A DNA stretch of 19,308 nucleotides from positions 1 to 19,308 of the forward strand of contig JADFWU010000054.1 in NCBI GenBank assembly GCA_015234045.1, written 5' to 3'. Positions within the stretch are counted from its first letter, which is position 1. Each line of letters begins with the position of its first letter. The position numbers and the translations under genes are program-made. The notes under the pieces were generated by a model, which was given only the letters and a program-made list of their open reading frames with translations, made no database searches and was not told the DNA's origin. This DNA comes from Magnetococcales bacterium. GTDB lineage: Bacteria; Pseudomonadota; Magnetococcia; Magnetococcales; JADFWU01. Positions 1,357 through 9,697 of the stretch are shown in pieces.

Positions 1357-2067
1357 ATGATTGAGTTCTATAATGTCAGCATGCGCTACCCAACGGGCTA
1401 TGTCGCCCTTAAGGAGTGCAGTTTTGCTATTCCCAAAGGATCGTTTCATTTTCTGTCCGGCCACTCCGGTGCAGGCAAAACGTCTGTCTTAAAATTGATC
1501 TACCGTGCCGAGGTGGCCGCAGAAGGTGCCGTGATCGTCAACGGACGCAATATTGAACGATTGACCCGACGACAAGTTCCTGAATTACGCCGCTCTATTG
1601 GTGTTATTTTTCAAGACTTTAAACTCCTATACGACCGAACGGTGTTTGATAATGTTGCCCTCGCCATGGAGGTCGCAGGTCATGATCCGGCAAAAATCCC
1701 GGGCCAGGTTGCCCGCACCCTGGAATATGTTGGTCTGAAAGACAGCATCTATCAAAACCCGATTTCTCTATCCGGTGGTGAACAACAGCGCGTTTCCATC
1801 GCTCGAGCAATTGTCAATCGACCACCTCTGGTTATCGCTGACGAACCAACCGGTAACCTTGATTTGGAAATGGGGCGCCGTATTTTTGCACTTTTTGAGT
1901 CTCTTCACCAACAAGGGACCACTATTTTTTTGGTTTCCCATGACCAACAGCTGATGGATGAGCTTGGACACCCGGCACTTCAAATGAAAGATTCACGCCT
2001 GATTCATATTCCCCCTTCAGCCCAATTGAAAGACTCTCACCCCTTGCCCGGAGCAGAACAGCCGTGA
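1357..2067 (+). CDS. ftsE: Cell-division ATP-binding protein FtsE
   Basis: FtsE is the cytoplasmic ATPase of the FtsEX complex, which in Gram-negative bacteria couples the Z-ring to activation of septal peptidoglycan hydrolases. All ABC motifs are visible in the 236 residues: Walker A at 35-42 (GHSGAGKT), Q-loop Gln86 in the FQD motif, signature LSGGE at 138-142, Walker B ending D162-E163, D-loop and H-loop His195. The sequence IFQDFKLL and ADEPTGNLD is characteristic of FtsE/LolD-like ATPases; the adjoining ftsX decides between them. The stop TGA overlaps the GTG start of ftsX by 4 bases, implying translational coupling. The start ATG has little Shine-Dalgarno sequence. The last 20-25 residues are a Pro/Ser-rich tail typical for variable FtsE ends. 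Confidence 0.96.
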
Positions 2068-3632: not shown

Positions 3633-4421
3633 ATGAGTAAATCTGGAAACAACTCAATTCTCGCTCTCCATGATGCCATAGGATTTGGCGATCTGGATCA
3701 ACTTCAACTGCTTATCCGTGATGATGGCAATCTGAATGCGCCAGATGAAAACGGCTGCACCCCTTTGATTTGGGCCGTGGCAGAAGAGCGTTTTAATATG
3801 GTTCATATGCTGCTTGACAGCGGTGCAGATCCACAAACTCAGAATCATCAAGGGATGGCTCCCCTACACTTTTGCGCTTTACTTAACACACCAAGTATCG
3901 CGGCCCTGCTGATCAAGAATGGTGCAAAAGTCAATGCCATTGACCTTGATCTACGCACCCCACTACACATGGCTGCTAAACGCGGTGCAAAAAAAACCGC
4001 TATGGTTCTGATCAATGCTGGTGCCAACACAAATGCCTTGGATGATAATAACCGCTCGCCCCTTCATGAGGCGGCAAAAAAAGGTCATATGGCCATTGTA
4101 AAACTCTTACTAGCCAATAATGCCCAGGTTGATATGTTGGATGATGATGAGCAACGTCCGCTTCACGAAGCCGCAAAAAAAGGCCATGACCGAATGGTCA
4201 AAGTATTGATTAAAGCTGGTGCCAATCCCGCCTTGCCAGATAACAGCGGTGTCACTCCTCTGCATGAAGCGGCTAAAAAAGGCCATCTGTCTATTGCTCA
4301 ACGATTGATCAATAGTGGAGCTCCTTTTGACCCGCGTGACAATAATAATATAACGCCGCTTGATGAAGCTAAAAAAAAGGGACACCGTACCATCAACACG
4401 TTCCTAAGAGCTTGCCACTGA
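3633..4421 (+). CDS. Ankyrin-repeat protein, seven repeats
   Basis: The 262 residues consist almost entirely of 33-residue ankyrin repeats, beginning about residue 40 and running to the end, preceded by a less regular helical pair. Repeats 4 to 6 carry a nearly identical PLHEAAKKGH core, and the last, PLDEAKKKGH, is a capping variant. No signal peptide or membrane segment is visible, so a cytoplasmic binding protein is likely; the partner is unknown. The gene follows gcvH by 57 bp and may be co-transcribed. The start ATG is weakly supported by upstream sequence. Lysine pairs in the repeats are written as AAA codons, giving A6-A8 runs. Such repeat proteins occur in many free-living bacteria, so they do not by themselves indicate host interaction. 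Confidence 0.9.
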   Translation: MSKSGNNSILALHDAIGFGDLDQLQLLIRDDGNLNAPDENGCTPLIWAVAEERFNMVHMLLDSGADPQTQNHQGMAPLHFCALLNTPSIAALLIKNGAKVNAIDLDLRTPLHMAAKRGAKKTAMVLINAGANTNALDDNNRSPLHEAAKKGHMAIVKLLLANNAQVDMLDDDEQRPLHEAAKKGHDRMVKVLIKAGANPALPDNSGVTPLHEAAKKGHLSIAQRLINSGAPFDPRDNNNITPLDEAKKKGHRTINTFLRACH

Positions 4422-4492: not shown

Positions 4493-4747
4493 ATGAGCGT
4501 TACAATGAAGCATAAGGACAAGACATGCCCTTTCCTCATGAAAATCTGCATTCGCGATGAGTGTGCGATCTACAACATCCGCTCAAAAAATTGCAATATT
4601 AATGTAACCGCTCAAGCCCTCACCAGCGGCCCACCCTTCGGACCGCGTGGCCCTTTCAATAGACCAGGAGGACCACGCGGTCCTGCTGGACCTAAAGGAG
4701 GCAACACGCCTCCTGGAACGGACAACGATTCATCAACGCGACATTAA
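4493..4747 (+). CDS. Small four-cysteine protein with Gly/Pro (collagen-like) tail
   Basis: An 84-residue protein of unknown function. The N-terminal half has four cysteines, Cys12, 19, 24 and 34, in the pattern CPFLMKxC-x4-C-x9-C, which suggests a small metal (Zn or Fe-S) knuckle. From about residue 45 the chain turns into a collagen-like tail with GPRGP, GPAGP and GPKGG triplets. An internal ATG at 4505 would remove the first four residues; neither start has a strong ribosome-binding site. It lies 71 bp after the ankyrin gene on the same strand and could be the last gene of that unit. The two GPRGP segments are encoded by different synonymous codons that form an 11-bp perfect inverted repeat at DNA level. 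I do not recognise a named family. Confidence 0.6.
   Translation: MSVTMKHKDKTCPFLMKICIRDECAIYNIRSKNCNINVTAQALTSGPPFGPRGPFNRPGGPRGPAGPKGGNTPPGTDNDSSTRH
4640..4683 (+). repeat. 11-bp perfect inverted repeat inside the collagen-like tail
   Basis: GGACCGCGTGG (4640-4650) and CCACGCGGTCC (4673-4683) are exact reverse complements with a 22-nt loop. Both arms encode Gly-Pro-Arg-Gly-Pro in the same frame by different codons. The transcript could fold into a strong GC hairpin. Confidence 0.85.
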
Positions 4748-4884: not shown

Positions 4885-5062
4885 TTTATTTTGTTGCAAA
4901 CAAATACATTAAACCTGCTTTTGGAAATTTTTGGGTTACATGGAGCTGTCAGGATAGACACCGTTGATAATTAACAGACTCGGTAAACGGGCGTGTTATT
5001 GGCTTATAAGGGAACCAGGTCGGCATGAAGACCGACCACAAACAATCATTGGGAGTAAGACC
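4885..5062 (+). promoter_or_regulatory. Conserved leader of small membrane peptide, copy 1
   Basis: This leader aligns with 6158-6335 upstream of the second peptide copy. Conserved blocks are TTTGTT-GCA-AACAAA followed by TACATTAAA (4890-4913), a TTTGGAAATT block, GGTTACAT, GCTGTCA, and a GGGAACCAGGTCGGCAT block. GGTCGG (5018-5023) and CCGACC (5032-5037) form a hairpin with loop CATGAAGA just before the ribosome-binding site GGGAG (5051-5055), 7 nt ahead of ATG 5063. The TTTGTT inverted repeat could be a protein operator; TAAAAT at 4876-4881 is a possible -10. Which part is DNA signal and which is RNA leader cannot be decided by eye. Confidence 0.6.
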
Positions 5063-5206
5063 ATGCATCTCGCCAGCCTACACGACATGAAATCAGATAT
5101 GTACAGCTATGATGTCAATCCGTTCTTTGGATTGCTCTCAATCACAGCCGGGCCAATTATCGCCCTGGTTGGTGTGCTGTTGGTCATCCACTATATGGTC
5201 GCTTGA
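5063..5206 (+). CDS. 47-residue single-pass membrane peptide, copy 1
   Basis: ATG at 5063 follows GGGAG by 7 nt, an excellent ribosome-binding site. The product has a polar, Met/His/Asp-rich N-terminus (1-19), the motif DVNPFFG at 17-23, and one hydrophobic segment from about 21 to 46 interrupted by GP at 30-31, with His43 near the far end. A paralogue at 6336-6479 is 39/47 identical; the eight replacements are all mild (Tyr/Phe, Leu/Ile/Met/Val, Ala/Ser, Tyr/His), while 14 further codons differ only synonymously, which shows selection on the protein. Length and layout resemble type I toxin peptides and other small bacterial membrane peptides; there is also a weak likeness to light-harvesting alpha chains. 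Role unknown. A 243-nt upstream-extended frame exists but lacks a comparable start. Confidence 0.82.
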   Translation: MHLASLHDMKSDMYSYDVNPFFGLLSITAGPIIALVGVLLVIHYMVA

Positions 5207-5222
5207 ATGAGCTGATCTGAGT

Positions 5223-5324
5223 CTTCCCGGTGGCATTTAGATGGGATTTCACCCCCTTTCTGTTGACACTGTGCATCCCCATTAAGTTGGTTTGATGTTC
5301 CATCAACAGCCAGCCACTGGGAAG
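5223..5324 (+). other. Long 3' hairpin downstream of peptide copy 1
   Basis: CTTCCCGGTGGC (5223-5234) pairs with GCCACTGGGAAG (5313-5324), 12 pairs with one G-U, starting 17 nt after the peptide stop. The 78-nt loop contains a second hairpin, TTGATG-TTC-CATCAA. No immediate T-run follows, so it is more likely a stabilising 3' structure than a classical terminator, though a T-rich stretch starts at about 5333. Copy 2 has an unrelated 12-bp hairpin in the same position. Confidence 0.6.
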
Positions 5325-5372
5325 CCTCGATTGGTATTTATTTTTTCAATATTCTACAACTGAAAAAAGGTG

Positions 5373-5401
5373 TTCATTAACAGGTTTAACATAAATATAT
5401 A
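5373..5401 (+). promoter_or_regulatory. Possible promoter of structured RNA copy 1
   Basis: TTCATT (5373-5378), 17 nt, TATATA (5396-5401) precedes the RNA. The alignment with copy 2 keeps the AAAAAGG-N2-TTCAT block at the same distance. The -35 is poor, so this is tentative; the RNA could also be processed from the peptide transcript. Confidence 0.35.
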
Positions 5402-5404
5402 GTC

Positions 5405-5511
5405 ATCCCTTGATCTGGGTTGCTACTCCCACAGCCCCCTCCAACAGTCCAGATCAAAGCTTCGCCTCTGGTTGCTTTCTGAATCGCCCCTGCAACCAGG
5501 GGCTTTTTTTT
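5405..5511 (+). ncRNA. Structured C-rich small RNA, copy 1
   Basis: Two stems with a T8 end. Stem 1: TTGATCTGGGTTG (5410-5422) with CAGTCCAGATCAA (5445-5457), 13 pairs including two G-U, enclosing a C-rich loop with TACTCCCA and CCCCCTCC. Stem 2: CCTCTGGTTGC (5465-5475) with GCAACCAGGGG (5492-5502), 11 pairs, loop containing AATCGCCCCT, then T8 (5504-5511): an intrinsic terminator. Comparison with copy 2 (6675-6780) shows compensatory changes in stem 1 (A5413-T5454 against T6683-A6723; G-U and U-G pairs replaced by A-U and C-G) and in stem 2 (G5471-C5496 against A6740-T6766). The loop TACTCCCA is the exact complement of TGGGAGTA (5050-5057) at the ribosome-binding site of peptide 1. I know no Rfam family that matches. 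Confidence 0.75.
5465..5511 (+). terminator. Rho-independent terminator of small RNA copy 1
   Basis: Eleven-pair stem (5465-5475/5492-5502) followed by C and T8. A shorter competing hairpin, GCCCCTG-CAAC-CAGGGGC at 5486-5503, uses the same 3' arm and would terminate equally well. Confidence 0.88.
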
Positions 5512-5536
5512 ATCCCACGCATAAAGAGATATTGTG

Positions 5537-5581
5537 ATTTCGATCCGAAATTTGACAATGAATCACAACCTGAGTGGAAGC
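5537..5581. repeat. 45-bp near-identical element, copy 1
   Basis: This element matches 6795-6839 at 43 of 45 positions, more than any other part of the duplication, and in both places lies just after the small-RNA terminator (25 and 14 bp of unrelated sequence between). It contains TTGACA (5552-5557) without a good -10. In copy 1 its head is a palindrome, ATTTCG-ATC-CGAAAT; both differences in copy 2 fall in the right arm. The plus frame reads FDPKFDNESQPEWK, in copy 2 FDPKLDNESQPEWK, so a gene remnant is also possible. Confidence 0.85.
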
Positions 5582-5650
5582 CCTGGTGATGTTTTTGCGC
5601 CGCTTTTGATATGCGAAGCAGATCATCAGAGCAAAAATATCACCAGGGCT
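5579..5650. repeat. 20-bp inverted repeat (long hairpin)
   Basis: Arms 5579-5598 and 5631-5650 pair at 20 positions with one G-U (19/20 identity), enclosing a 32-nt loop. The left arm begins in the last three bases of the 45-bp element. There is no T-run after it on the plus strand. It may be an RNA hairpin, the relic of a miniature inverted-repeat element, or a protein site. Confidence 0.8.
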
Positions 5651-6157
5651 GGAACGGCTCACTGTTCAAATTGTAGACGAAACCGCCATACAAACTGAAA
5701 GTTTCGATACTGGCTAAAGTCGGTGGTTTGAACCTTGCACAGGGATAATCAAAAAAACGATGAGGAGTTCTGGAATTCATGAACTATTCAGGTTAACCGT
5801 CCAAACACATAGATAACGCGTTCTTCATATCAATCAAACAGGATCTGATCAGATTGAATCATTGTTTATCATTTCATCATATTTTATTCATAGAAATGTA
5901 ACCAGACATTCTCTCTTCACGGTCCTAACCTCATCATATAGAGGCTATTTCAACAGATTATAATAAAAACACACTGCCATTTCTTCCTGATAGTCGTATA
6001 TAATATCTTACTATCAATCAAGAAGCACACCAACTTAATACTTTGTTTAATAATGACTTTACAACACACAACCTGATCCGATGTTGTCCGACATTCACTC
6101 AACGACACACCCCAAATTCAATCTATTCTTAATAAAAAAAATTAATATATTGATTGA
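5651..6157. other. Spacer between the two module copies, no gene seen
   Basis: About 500 AT-rich bases. I find no frame with a convincing start and ribosome-binding site (a GAGGAG near 5762 is followed only by a five-codon frame), no tRNA and no clear terminator. It contains the short palindrome TCTGATCAGA near 5845 and an imperfect repeat AAACCGCC/GGTGGTTT near 5690-5740. It has no counterpart on the far side of copy 2. Confidence 0.5.
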
Positions 6158-6335
6158 TAAGCTTTGTTACAAACAAATACATTAAAACTGTCTTTGGAAA
6201 TTCACGGATTACATCAGGCTGTCATAATCCAAACCATCAAACAGGCGACTGGCTCAACAAACGAGTCGGTTTTTTAAATACAAGGGAACCAGGTCGGCAT
6301 TAAGACCGATCACAAACCACCATCGGAGAAAAACC
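6158..6335 (+). promoter_or_regulatory. Conserved leader of small membrane peptide, copy 2
   Basis: It aligns with 4885-5062. It has TTTGTT-ACA-AACAAA (6163-6177), TACATTAAA, the TTTGGAAATT and GGTCGGCAT blocks, and the hairpin GGTCGG (6292-6297)/CCGATC (6306-6311), where a C-to-T change relative to copy 1 leaves a G-U pair and so keeps the fold. Only copy 2 has a second hairpin: GACTGGCTC (6247-6255) with GAGTCGGTT (6263-6271), nine pairs with three G-U, running into T6 (6270-6275), a possible attenuator. CGGAG (6324-6328) is the ribosome-binding site of ATG 6336. Confidence 0.6.
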
Positions 6336-6479
6336 ATGCATCTCTCTAGCCTACATGACATGAAATCTGATATGCACAGCTTTGACGTCAATCCCTTCTT
6401 TGGATTGATCTCAATCACCGCCGGACCGATCATTGCGCTGGTTGGCGTGTTGATGCTGATTCACTTCATGGTGTCTTGA
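6336..6479 (+). CDS. 47-residue single-pass membrane peptide, copy 2
   Basis: Paralogue of the peptide at 5063-5206, same length, 39/47 identical. GGAG (6325-6328) lies 7 nt before ATG. The polar head keeps MHLxSLHDMKSDM; DVNPFFG and SITAGPIIALVGVL are unchanged; the hydrophobic segment spans about 21-46 with His43 retained. Replacements relative to copy 1 are A4S, Y14H, Y16F, L25I, L40M, V41L, Y44F and A47S. Silent differences outnumber replacements although the genes are tiny, which supports translation. Same context as copy 1: leader hairpin upstream, long hairpin 24 nt downstream, small RNA about 200 nt downstream. A membrane effector controlled by that RNA is an inference from layout. 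No named family recognised. Confidence 0.82.
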   Translation: MHLSSLHDMKSDMHSFDVNPFFGLISITAGPIIALVGVLMLIHFMVS

Positions 6480-6502
6480 TTGATCGGAGTTGACGTTTTC
6501 CA

Positions 6503-6559
6503 GTGTCTGTTGAGCGGATGTGCTGCACAGCCTCTCAACAGACACCGTCTCCCCTTTTT
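6503..6559 (+). terminator. Hairpin downstream of peptide copy 2, possible terminator
   Basis: GTGTCTGTTGAG (6503-6514) pairs perfectly with CTCAACAGACAC (6534-6545), 12 bp, loop 19 nt. A T5 run follows only after CGTCTCCCC (6555-6559), so termination is plausible but not classical. It takes the place of the 5223-5324 hairpin of copy 1 with unrelated sequence. Confidence 0.55.
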
Positions 6560-6644
6560 GCACTGACTTTTTAACGTTGTTTATCGGTCATTCGGAAGGA
6601 TTGCGGGGGTGTGTGCCATTGAATTCTACATTTATAAAAAGGAC

Positions 6645-6673
6645 TTCATATATATATTTTACAAAGAATTAAT
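6645..6673 (+). promoter_or_regulatory. Possible promoter of structured RNA copy 2
   Basis: TTCATA (6645-6650), 17 nt, ATTAAT (6668-6673), aligned with the copy 1 candidate. The boxes are weak; the call rests mainly on conserved position. Confidence 0.3.
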
Positions 6674-6674
6674 T

Positions 6675-6780
6675 ATCCCTTGTTCTGGACTGTTACTCCC
6701 ACAACCCCTCCGACAGTCCAGCACAACACTCTTCCCCTGATTGCGTTCAATAATCGCCCCTGCAATCAGGGGATTTTTTT
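6675..6780 (+). ncRNA. Structured C-rich small RNA, copy 2
   Basis: Counterpart of 5405-5511. Stem 1: TTGTTCTGGACTG (6680-6692) with CAGTCCAGCACAA (6714-6726), 12 pairs and one T/C mismatch, loop with TACTCCCA (6694-6701) and CCCCTCCGA. Stem 2: CCCCTGATTGC (6734-6744) with GCAATCAGGGG (6762-6772), 11 perfect pairs, loop containing AATCGCCCCT, then A and T7. The retained TACTCCCA could pair with the ribosome-binding site of peptide 1, and CTCCGA (6708-6713) with TCGGAG (6323-6328) of peptide 2. A coding frame across it (plus, from 6680) is a by-product: it crosses both stems and is not conserved in copy 1. Confidence 0.75.
6734..6780 (+). terminator. Rho-independent terminator of small RNA copy 2
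   Basis: Perfect 11-bp stem (6734-6744/6762-6772) followed by A and T7. The shorter alternative CCCCTG-CAAT-CAGGGG (6757-6772) shares the 3' arm, as in copy 1. Confidence 0.9.
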
Positions 6781-6794
6781 GTCCATTTATAGTT

Positions 6795-6839
6795 ATTTCG
6801 ATCCAAAACTTGACAATGAATCACAACCTGAGTGGAAGC
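6795..6839. repeat. 45-bp near-identical element, copy 2
   Basis: 43/45 identical to 5537-5581, with TTGACA at 6810-6815. Similarity stops abruptly at 6839, so this end marks the right border of the duplicated module. The two differences break the ATTTCG/CGAAAT palindrome present in copy 1. Confidence 0.85.
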
Positions 6840-6915: not shown

Positions 6916-7398
6916 TTAGTTTACCGTTGGCTGACCTTCGGCCTGTTTCCTTGCTTGTGCCTGATGATAGACCGCTGCAAAGTTGATTGGATCAAGCACC
7001 AATGGCTTGAATCCGCCTTCAGTCACGGCGTGTGAAACCAACTGGCGAACATAGGGGAACAAGATATTGGGACACTCAATGCCAATCAGCATGGGTACTT
7101 GCGGTTCGGGAACATTACGAACGACAAACAAACCAGCATAAGAAACCTCAATCAAGAATAACAGCTTGTCCTTGACCGTCACTTTTGTCGTGACATGCAA
7201 CGTCACTTCATAACCGGTTTCGCCCATCTTATTGGCAGATGTGTCGAGATTGAACTCTACCTTTGGCTCTTCGGATTCTTTGAAAATGGCTGGAGAGTTG
7301 GGGCTTTCATAGGAAAAGTCTTTAAGATAGAGCTTTTCCACGTGAAATACCGGTTGCTCGGCTGCCTGTTGTCCACCATTCTCGCCTACTTCAGCCAT
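6916..7398 (-). CDS. secB: Protein-export chaperone SecB
   Basis: SecB is a homotetrameric cytoplasmic chaperone that keeps preproteins unfolded and delivers them to SecA; it is largely confined to proteobacteria. The 160-residue length fits (E. coli about 155). Family sequence is recognisable from VEKLYLKDFSYESPN (about 20-34) through VTVKDKLLFLIEVSYAGLF to the CPNILFPYVRQLVSHAVTEGGF block and the closing LDPINFAAVYHQ. AGGA lies 8 nt before ATG. The gene is 61 bp downstream of the helicase gene on the same strand and could be co-transcribed with it. Confidence 0.97.
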   Translation of the reverse strand: MAEVGENGGQQAAEQPVFHVEKLYLKDFSYESPNSPAIFKESEEPKVEFNLDTSANKMGETGYEVTLHVTTKVTVKDKLLFLIEVSYAGLFVVRNVPEPQVPMLIGIECPNILFPYVRQLVSHAVTEGGFKPLVLDPINFAAVYHQAQARKQAEGQPTVN

Positions 7399-7459: not shown

Positions 7460-9079
7460 CTATTGTGAATCTGCTGATCCTTGCTGCGTTTGAGCACCTT
7501 CTTTGGACACTGTTGATTTTTTACGTCTTCTGCGCCGTCTGCGTTTTTTTACTTCTCCAGCCTTTGTTTCGCCAGCTTCAGATGCTTGTTTTTGTTGGGA
7601 TACACCGGATTTTTTATTCTGCTCTGTGCTGGCATTATCCGTTTGGGATGCGTTGCTTTTTTTCTTACGGTGTCTGGATCTCTTTTTTCCAGGCTGACTG
7701 TTTCTATTTCCACTGGAGGGACCAGAAGAACGACGCTTGCCAGAATGTGACCGCTTCTTATCTTTAGGAACATACGGTGGTCGCTTCAAGTCAACAAACA
7801 ACGACTCATCTGCCCATCCGACAGGAATCTCTTGCTTAATAAAAGCAGTCAACGCTTCCAGATTATACGCGCCACCTTCATCTACCAGGGTAATCGCGTC
7901 TCCTTTAGCACCAGCTCGCGCGGTTCGACCAATGCGGTGTACATAATCTTCTGGATTATCTGGCAGGTCATAGTTAATCACATGGGTCACGCCATTGATA
8001 TGCAACCCGCGTCCAGCAACATCGGTGGCAATCAGTACAGGCAACTGACCTTCTTGGAAACGGCGTAGAATTTTTAGTCGCTTGGTCTGTGGCACATCAC
8101 CGGAGAGATAGCCGCTCTCAAAACCATTGACATTCAACCAACGCACAAGGGTTTCGCCCATCCGTTTGGTATTGGTGAAGATCATCACACGGCTATCCAT
8201 CACCGGTGTTTCACTCTCTTCTATGTCTTGAGACTCTTCTGCGTTCAGATTATCCGACTGTTCTGATTGGGCCTGCTGTTCTTCATCTTTTTTGAGTTTA
8301 GCATCGGCTGTTCGATCGGCCAGATCCTTGCGCAACAAGCCCACTAAAAGGGAAATTTTTTCTTTGCCGCTCACATGATAAAGCTGTTGAGTAACCTGAT
8401 CGGCGGTCATCTCTTCCTGTGGTGGCGCAATCACTTCCGGCAGGTTCATATACTCATAGGAGAGTTCCTGCGCCCGATAGGAAAGCGTTGCTGAAAAGAG
8501 CATGGAGAGCCGCTTCTCATAAGAAGGCATACGGCGCAACATAAAGCGCAGATCAGCAATAAAACCCATGTCAAACATGCGATCTGCTTCGTCAATCACC
8601 AACGCTTCGATCTGTCTACAGCTATAGGTCCGCTGTTTGAGATAATCAATCAATCGACCAGGCGTACCAACCAGGATATCTGTATCTCCTGCGATCAGGC
8701 TATCACGTTGGCGATCATAGTTCACACCACCGTAAACCGCCGTAACAGTCAGATCAGTATATTTACCAAGTAACAGCGCATCCTGTTCAATTTGCACCGC
8801 CAACTCTCGGGTTGGCGCAATAATCAATGCACGGGGATAACCACGCCCTTTGTGACGTGGTGGATCTAACGCTTTAGTGGGTTGTGACAGCAATCTGCTG
8901 AAAATAGCGATGAGATAGGCAGCTGTTTTACCAGTTCCAGTATGGGCCTGGCCAGAGACATCCCGCCCTGCCAGAGTCACCGGCAATGTCATAGCCTGAA
9001 TAGGCGTACACTCTACAAATCCCGCATCTCCAATGCCCTTCATTATTGGTTCTGGAATATCAAGCTCAGTAAATTTCAT
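7460..9079 (-). CDS. DEAD-box RNA helicase (RhlB/RhlE type)
   Basis: An ATP-dependent RNA helicase, probably acting in RNA decay or ribosome assembly. Visible motifs: Q motif ending at Gln28, motif I AHTGTGKT at 45-52, PTRELA 89-94, GG 117-118, TPGR 139-142, DEAD 163-166, SAT 196-198, then in domain 2 the ATDVAGRGLH and HRIGRTARAG motifs. Two oddities. An acidic, Gln/Ser-rich insertion of about 40 residues (about 255-298) separates the two RecA domains. The last 115 residues or so are a basic low-complexity tail with an Arg/Lys run (KKRRRRRRRKK), likely for RNA binding. RhlB is the closest assignment but RhlE-like proteins also have such tails. A perfect TATAAT (minus, 9141-9146) lies upstream. 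Confidence 0.93.
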   Translation of the reverse strand: MKFTELDIPEPIMKGIGDAGFVECTPIQAMTLPVTLAGRDVSGQAHTGTGKTAAYLIAIFSRLLSQPTKALDPPRHKGRGYPRALIIAPTRELAVQIEQDALLLGKYTDLTVTAVYGGVNYDRQRDSLIAGDTDILVGTPGRLIDYLKQRTYSCRQIEALVIDEADRMFDMGFIADLRFMLRRMPSYEKRLSMLFSATLSYRAQELSYEYMNLPEVIAPPQEEMTADQVTQQLYHVSGKEKISLLVGLLRKDLADRTADAKLKKDEEQQAQSEQSDNLNAEESQDIEESETPVMDSRVMIFTNTKRMGETLVRWLNVNGFESGYLSGDVPQTKRLKILRRFQEGQLPVLIATDVAGRGLHINGVTHVINYDLPDNPEDYVHRIGRTARAGAKGDAITLVDEGGAYNLEALTAFIKQEIPVGWADESLFVDLKRPPYVPKDKKRSHSGKRRSSGPSSGNRNSQPGKKRSRHRKKKSNASQTDNASTEQNKKSGVSQQKQASEAGETKAGEVKKRRRRRRRKKSTVSKEGAQTQQGSADSQ

Positions 9080-9140
9080 AAAATCTCTCAGAGCATGCCC
9101 ACCAACCCGTTATCAATAAATAGCTAAATATTTCGAGTGC

Positions 9141-9146
9141 ATTATA
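9141..9146 (-). promoter_or_regulatory. -10 box upstream of the DEAD-box helicase
   Basis: TATAAT on the minus strand, about 60 nt before the helicase start. No good -35 at 16-18 nt, so a promoter is likely but incomplete by consensus. Confidence 0.4.
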
Positions 9147-9223
9147 TTATTGTCGCACCAACTTCAGCCTGTTTTACTGATCCCTGCGAGTCTATCGACA
9201 CACCGTATCATGCAGTATGCATA

Positions 9224-9697
9224 TCAACGATGATAGGGAACACCATGGATAATCGTCATAGCCCGGTAAAGCTGTTCTAGCAGCAACACACGTGCCAACA
9301 TATGCGGGAACGTCATCGAACCCAATGAAAGGCGCAAATCCGCCTGCTTAACCAATTCGGGTGCCACGCCATCCGGTCCACCAATAATAAAGGTGACAGG
9401 GCCCAAGGCATCCTGTCGCCACTGATTCAGACGACTGGCCCACTTTTCGGAACTGAACACCTGCCCCCTGCTGTCCAGCACAACCAACACACCATCGCCT
9501 TGTTTTAGCTGTTTTTTAAGACGATTGGCTTCCTGCACCATGGCTTTATTCGGGGACAAGCCACCCTGTCGATGCGCCTCAGCGATTTCAATCAACTCGA
9601 ATTGACCATAGCGCTTCAATCGCTTGGTATAGTCATCAACCAGCATACGCACCGGCTCAGGCATGCCCCGCCCAACAGCCATTAAACGCCATTTCAC
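9224..9697 (-). CDS. rlmH: 23S rRNA (pseudouridine1915-N3)-methyltransferase RlmH
   Basis: RlmH is a small SPOUT-class methyltransferase that modifies helix 69 of 23S rRNA on the assembled 70S ribosome. The 157 residues match the family (155 in E. coli). The knot is visible in FIIGGPDG and in LSLGSMTFPHMLARVLLLEQLYRA, ending in the conserved GVPYHR C-terminus. The ATG overlaps the stop of rsfS by four bases, so translation is coupled. It is the last gene of the obgE-proB-proA-nadD-rsfS-rlmH unit. Confidence 0.96.
   Translation of the reverse strand: MKWRLMAVGRGMPEPVRMLVDDYTKRLKRYGQFELIEIAEAHRQGGLSPNKAMVQEANRLKKQLKQGDGVLVVLDSRGQVFSSEKWASRLNQWRQDALGPVTFIIGGPDGVAPELVKQADLRLSLGSMTFPHMLARVLLLEQLYRAMTIIHGVPYHR

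Follow-up and report, generated by a model that had tools for sequence, protein, structure and literature searches.

What could explain a gene for a 47-residue hydrophobic protein that occurs twice in tandem, each time followed on the same strand by a structured, terminated RNA? The question is raised by a 19,308-nt stretch of DNA from a Magnetococcales bacterium (contig JADFWU010000054.1, C67 in our numbering), referred to here as the window. The genome is a 3.65-Mb draft in 117 contigs, and genome-wide backgrounds (word counts and gene starts) rest on ~420 kb of it. The original prediction for this DNA described a duplicated five-part unit and likened it to type I toxin-antitoxin loci. Our best reading, to which we give a probability of about one half, is that a duplicated small-protein gene is accompanied by a downstream, trans-acting small RNA (sRNA) with anti-Shine-Dalgarno loops, which is either made from its own promoter or cut from the 3' untranslated region (3'UTR).

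According to this reading, each copy would consist of a promoter/operator region, a structured leader, the gene for a 47-residue inner-membrane protein and, ~200 nt downstream on the same strand, a terminated RNA. The RNA would be transcribed from a promoter of its own or processed out of the 3'UTR of the protein mRNA, its C-rich loops would pair in trans with G-rich ribosome-binding sites, and the two RNAs, carrying the same seeds, would act as siblings. The protein may modulate a membrane partner, by analogy with MgrB-type small proteins. The genome encodes Hfq.

The duplicated unit

A leader, a 47-aa open reading frame (ORF), a 3' hairpin and a terminated two-hairpin RNA are present twice in the window, in the same order. 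The features of the two copies are as follows.

4890..4913, plus strand: copy 1 upstream palindrome TTTGTTGCAAACAAA with TACATTAAA; one base differs from copy 2
5010..5062, plus strand: copy 1 leader with AGGGAACCA, hairpin GGTCGG..CCGACC and Shine-Dalgarno sequence GGGAG; 85% identity to copy 2
5063..5206, plus strand: copy 1 predicted 47-aa single-span membrane protein; 83% nucleotide identity to copy 2, hydropathy maximum 2.6 over 19 residues
5221..5328, plus strand: copy 1 3' hairpin region after the stop codon; z -3.8, 46% identity to copy 2
5405..5512, plus strand: copy 1 predicted two-hairpin RNA with C-rich loop and terminator (5486-5503); z -4.0
6163..6186, plus strand: copy 2 upstream palindrome TTTGTTACAAACAAA with TACATTAAA
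6284..6335, plus strand: copy 2 leader with AGGGAACCA, hairpin GGTCGG..CCGATC and Shine-Dalgarno sequence GGAG
6336..6479, plus strand: copy 2 predicted 47-aa single-span membrane protein
6502..6546, plus strand: copy 2 3' hairpin after the stop codon; z -4.6
6675..6782, plus strand: copy 2 predicted two-hairpin RNA with C-rich loop and terminator (6757-6772); z -8.1

The duplication of the membrane-peptide gene together with the RNA unit is real. Leader and ORF recur at an offset of 1273 bp, and the RNA at one of 1269-1270 bp. The repeats D1 (181 nt, 80% identity), D4, D5, D8, D9 and D16 have offsets of 1273, 1273, 1274, 1270, 1269 and 1270 bp, respectively, which bears out the ordered two-copy layout that had been proposed. 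Between the two ORFs there are 17 synonymous and 8 non-synonymous differences, giving a synonymous divergence (dS) of ~0.96 and a non-synonymous divergence (dN) of 0.08 (dN/dS ~0.08). By this measure the protein is under strong purifying selection and, because synonymous sites are near saturation, the copies are old; as judged from their alignment, the small gene unit was duplicated in tandem long ago.

Identity between the copies varies along the unit, from 74% in the upstream block and 57% in the mid leader to 85% between the leader hairpin and the Shine-Dalgarno sequence, 83% in the ORF, 46% after the stop codon, 58% in the 59 nt ahead of the RNA and 78% in the RNA itself; the spacer between terminator and the following repeat cannot be aligned. 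On this comparison the selected parts are the ORF, the RNA and portions of the leader. The distance from stop codon to RNA is ~199 nt in copy 1 and ~196 nt in copy 2, and such kept spacing had been taken to mean that the layout itself is selected. With just two copies it is a weak sign of this, because common descent accounts for the spacing.

In both copies the leader hairpin GGTCGG..CCGAYC sits 5' of the Shine-Dalgarno sequence. Further upstream lies the inverted repeat TTTGTTRCAAACAAA, at 4890 and 6163, which has no other occurrence in the ~420 kb of the same genome with one mismatch allowed. The region 4890..4913 is a probable operator/promoter region.

The predicted membrane protein and its relatives

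The peptide reaches a hydropathy of 2.5-2.6 over 19 residues, which places it among small hydrophobic peptides as defined for type I toxin-antitoxin systems and from which we infer a single-span, inner-membrane location. Searches of Pfam and NCBIfam with the peptide gave zero matches at E-values up to 10. Sequence and profile searches recovered seven genes of one family in this genome, namely the window pair and five others (L003 with 54% identity, L004 with 44%, a tandem pair in L036, and L005), and three in two relatives (L007/L028 and L033 in one, L006 in the other). L005 and L036, the most distant members, had E-values of ~0.04-0.06 prior to their inclusion in the profile, and their membership is less sure. 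The family pattern is D-x-N-P-[FLI]-x-x-[LV], with a second proline 11 residues on, inside the hydrophobic span; conservation is highest in the soluble-side motif (DVNP) ahead of the span.

The relatives in the search set belong to a single order, and no genome of the same class from outside that order was among those searched. In a search of genome contigs by species, the sole named genome with a relative of the peptide was "Magnetococcales bacterium isolate nwalbin5"; a match inside a long AsmA-like protein, obtained in the same search, was rejected as chance. Viral contigs and plasmids gave no match to the peptide.

The original prediction proposed to test the layout by the co-occurrence of peptide and RNA in related genomes. 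The layout is not an orphan, and such co-occurrence does not hold for the family at large, as the RNA model found no RNA downstream of L003, L004, L005 or L036 in the same genome, nor of L006, L007 or L033 in the relatives. Among the peptide-family genes found, the RNA is linked only to the window pair, and the family, as delineated by these searches, is a small, lineage-restricted group of single-span membrane proteins that mostly lack it.

PHO-box-like sites, with direct repeats spaced by 11 bp, lie upstream of the peptide genes L004, L005, L036 and L007, and the same word precedes a pstS-like gene (L099) as well as the gene for an npt-type Na/Pi cotransporter (L080); L005 itself adjoins PstS-like and PiT-like genes. 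Scored with the E. coli consensus, the L004, L005 and L036 sites rank within the best 0-0.4% of 260 gene starts. A matrix that combines the pst and npt sites of this genome with the E. coli consensus puts L004 and L005 above all 260 starts, L036 at 2%, and L003 and L007 at 3%. The motif was first spotted by eye in the peptide loci, and the nptA site was then found using that motif. We regard these sites as a lead, not as proof, and a phosphate-starvation small-protein family in Magnetococcales as possible.

For the window pair, a PHO box of the form TTACATC-AGGC-TGTCATAA looks plausible by eye and is matched by 10-16% of the background with the E. coli consensus. It was rejected with the pst/npt-site matrix, under which 47-77% of the background is as good; the pair has no site by that matrix and bears the palindrome described above instead.

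The predicted two-hairpin RNA and the DNA around it

All 24 stem pairs of the predicted RNA form in both copies; six of them vary, three by changes on both sides, and in a control in which the stem partners were slid by 1-3 columns, pairing was seen in just 27-46% of cells. Hairpin 1 exposes the loop UACUCCCACA..CCCCUCC, and hairpin 2, whose loop contains AAUCGCCCC, is a predicted terminator; both RNAs have an intrinsic terminator where one is expected. The C-rich loop of hairpin 1 is kept at ~20/22 positions next to a 3' region that is 46% identical, a degree of conservation with a binomial probability of ~1e-5 against the 46% background and 9e-4 against 58%.

No Rfam family matches the module at its gathering score, and none does so credibly at E-values up to 10; together with the Pfam and NCBIfam searches, this agrees with the claim of a structured C-rich RNA and a membrane peptide of no recognised family. 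In this genome the RNA model recovered the two window copies and nothing else. In 47 further genomes from the order it gave two weak matches (L026 and L027), neither of them convincing, and both were rejected as homologues. L027 lacks the C-rich loop; L026, which follows uvrB on the opposite strand, is a C-rich-loop hairpin of a different kind. The loop had no match in viral contigs. As a separate observation, the L026 region (1535-1644, minus strand, relative G030) holds C-rich-loop hairpins, with UUUCCCUCUCCUCC and CCCCCUCCCCCCCC loops, downstream of the uvrB-like gene, and has a weak ar14-like score of 22 bits, under the gathering cut-off.

Several observations weigh against a separate, trans-acting RNA. 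A promoter scan ahead of the RNA gave a weak match in copy 2 only and none that convinces, and the 59 nt before the RNA are poorly kept between the copies, as noted above. The covariation rests on one two-sequence comparison, and 66 of 500 shuffles reach the same level. The predicted targets are generic, since an anti-Shine-Dalgarno loop pairs with many starts. An alternative, to which we assign a minor share of the probability, is that the RNA simply forms the end of the peptide mRNA, as its 3'UTR plus terminator, and does no regulatory work of its own. It lies on the peptide's strand ~200 nt past the stop codon, no clear promoter precedes it, and other family members have a terminator-like hairpin soon after the gene. 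A plain terminator, however, would make the first hairpin superfluous, and would leave unexplained why the C-rich loop is conserved while the flanking 3' sequence has fallen to 46% identity. For a regulatory RNA, transcription from its own promoter and processing from a 3'UTR, as with the CcsR RNAs behind ccaF1, appear equally possible.

The peptide genes themselves might be the targets, in that the C-rich loop would limit translation of the peptide mRNA by pairing, in cis or in trans, with its Shine-Dalgarno sequence. In leader 1, UGGGAGUA can pair with UACUCCCA of both RNAs, with accessibility-counted ranks of 13 of 269 starts for RNA 2 and 38 for RNA 1; in leader 2, UCGGAG can pair with CUCCGA of RNA 2 (rank 41). 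Pairing of this kind is, however, expected at many starts, the ranks become 60-236 when accessibility is left out, and CUCCGA lies partly within the closing stem. The peptide starts are not outstanding among the 269-271 starts compared, and as special targets they were rejected on their moderate ranks. We consider such feedback unlikely.

Pairing also bears on the likeness to type I toxin-antitoxin loci, in which the peptide would act as a membrane toxin that the RNA, as antitoxin, counters by base pairing. A small hydrophobic peptide, a duplicated locus and an adjacent structured RNA suit this proposal, as does a possible pairing of 7-9 nt between the loop and the Shine-Dalgarno sequence of copy 1. 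The RNA, however, is encoded on the same strand as the peptide without overlapping it, and the longest perfect complementarity between RNA and peptide transcripts is 8-9 nt, against at least 18 nt of complementarity to the toxin mRNA in known type I antitoxins (PMC4147584). Duplex energies between RNA and transcript are near those of shuffled transcripts, except for RNA 2 with transcript 2 (~2 standard deviations), and the copy 2 start is an ordinary target, whose accessibility-counted rank among 269 starts runs from 41 to 142 according to which loop is used. The RNA is missing from the five further peptide genes of this genome, and the peptide is best conserved in its soluble-side DVNP motif, before the span. 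We judge a toxin-antitoxin role very improbable, and the analogy drawn in the original prediction gives way to a trans-acting sRNA as the preferred reading.

Beyond the terminators, the window holds two pieces of a repeat that lie outside the module.

5530..5690, plus strand: complete copy of a ~161-bp repeat resembling a miniature inverted-repeat transposable element (MITE); holds the 45-bp element and the 5579-5650 hairpin
6788..6838, plus strand: truncated copy (left end) of the same MITE-like repeat

The original prediction counted a 45-bp element as the fifth part of the module. Its 43-bp left-end core occurs at 82 places in the genome within 3 mismatches, and an alignment of 28 copies gives a full element of ~161 bp with a central hairpin and imperfect inverted ends (TATAGTSATTTCG..RAAATTTGAC / GTTCAAATTTTAGACGAAACYACTATA). 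Short, non-coding, present in many copies and bounded by terminal inverted repeats, it has the properties of a MITE, and its TA ends suggest an IS630/Tc1-type parent. More than 80 copies are found in the genome (L038-L057 and others), several of them at contig ends; L043 contains a head-to-tail array with a 161-bp period (8931-9617), and at least one other copy (L044) also directly follows a terminator. Of the two window copies, one equals the genome consensus and the other departs from it at a single position. Because they are this close to consensus, while the module copies are near synonymous saturation, the two repeats were most likely inserted separately, after the old duplication. Of the five-part unit, leader, peptide, 3' hairpin and RNA thus recur as described, and the 45-bp element was rejected as a part of it.

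The module pair is bordered on the left by what we take, from its translation, to be an ankyrin-repeat gene (3633-4421) and on the right by a presumed SecB-like gene (6916-7398, minus strand). An 84-aa ORF with a G/P-rich C-terminal tail (GPPFGPRGPFNRPGGPRGPAGPKGG) lies between the ankyrin gene and copy 1 (4493-4747, plus strand), and an 18-bp tandem repeat, CTGCGCCTCTTCCTCTGG, occupies positions 1-90 at the contig start, probably inside a minus-strand coding sequence.

Comparison with known systems

The type I loci Ldr/Rdl, Ibs/Sib and Zor/Orz share with the window a short hydrophobic peptide, a duplicated locus and a small RNA nearby, and differ from it in the points given above: the window RNA is not antisense, its complementarity is 9 nt at most, and the peptide has paralogues that lack the RNA. 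IsrR, RsaE and LhrC are sRNAs with CU- or C-rich loops, whose C-rich hairpin-loop stretches are proposed to pair with Shine-Dalgarno sequences; their likeness to the window RNA is one of mechanism only, with no sequence relation. The peptide resembles MgrB, an inner-membrane small protein of 47 aa (PMC12501420), and other small membrane modulators of sensor kinases in size and predicted location only.

Taken as a whole, the find is modest, and the RNA is a prediction from sequence. The two diverged copies reveal which parts are kept, namely the loop seeds, the stems, the terminator and the peptide. The locus further draws attention to small membrane proteins of an undescribed family, with upstream PHO-box-like sites, and so to the matter of how small proteins may tune phosphate sensing.

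The pairing of small proteins with C-rich-loop sRNAs has been described chiefly at alphaproteobacterial DUF1127/CcsR loci, and the hairpin loops of the CcsR RNAs are C-rich. It is to the ccaF1-CcsR1-4 locus of this group (CIN1, the cuckoo RNAs and Rfam ar14 kin) that the layout of the window comes closest, with neither protein nor RNA homologous by the searches made. In Rhodobacter sphaeroides, ccaF1 encodes a 71-aa DUF1127 protein and is followed by four CcsR RNAs that are cotranscribed with it and processed (PMC10253847). The window shares with that locus a small-protein gene followed by same-strand hairpin sRNAs, a terminator at the end and homologous sibling RNAs (PMC10253847). It differs in its protein, which is not a DUF1127 protein but a hydrophobic peptide with a single predicted span and without a match in Pfam, and in that one RNA accompanies each peptide gene and the entire unit is duplicated. 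The ar14 covariance model had no match in the module at E-values up to 10 and none in this genome at E-values up to 0.1, and DUF1127 was not found in the window peptide (Pfam/NCBIfam, E-values up to 10). Membership of the CIN1/cuckoo group thus fails on both the RNA model and the protein domain, though the layout would work alike. We tentatively suggest, as a possibility short of an even chance, a new kind of small-protein/sRNA locus outside this group, with a duplicated single-span protein, a 3'-encoded anti-Shine-Dalgarno sRNA and sister genes apparently under PhoB-type phosphate control. If the RNA is real, a deep-branching lineage has arrived at a CcsR-like layout with a membrane protein that is unrelated to the DUF1127 proteins.

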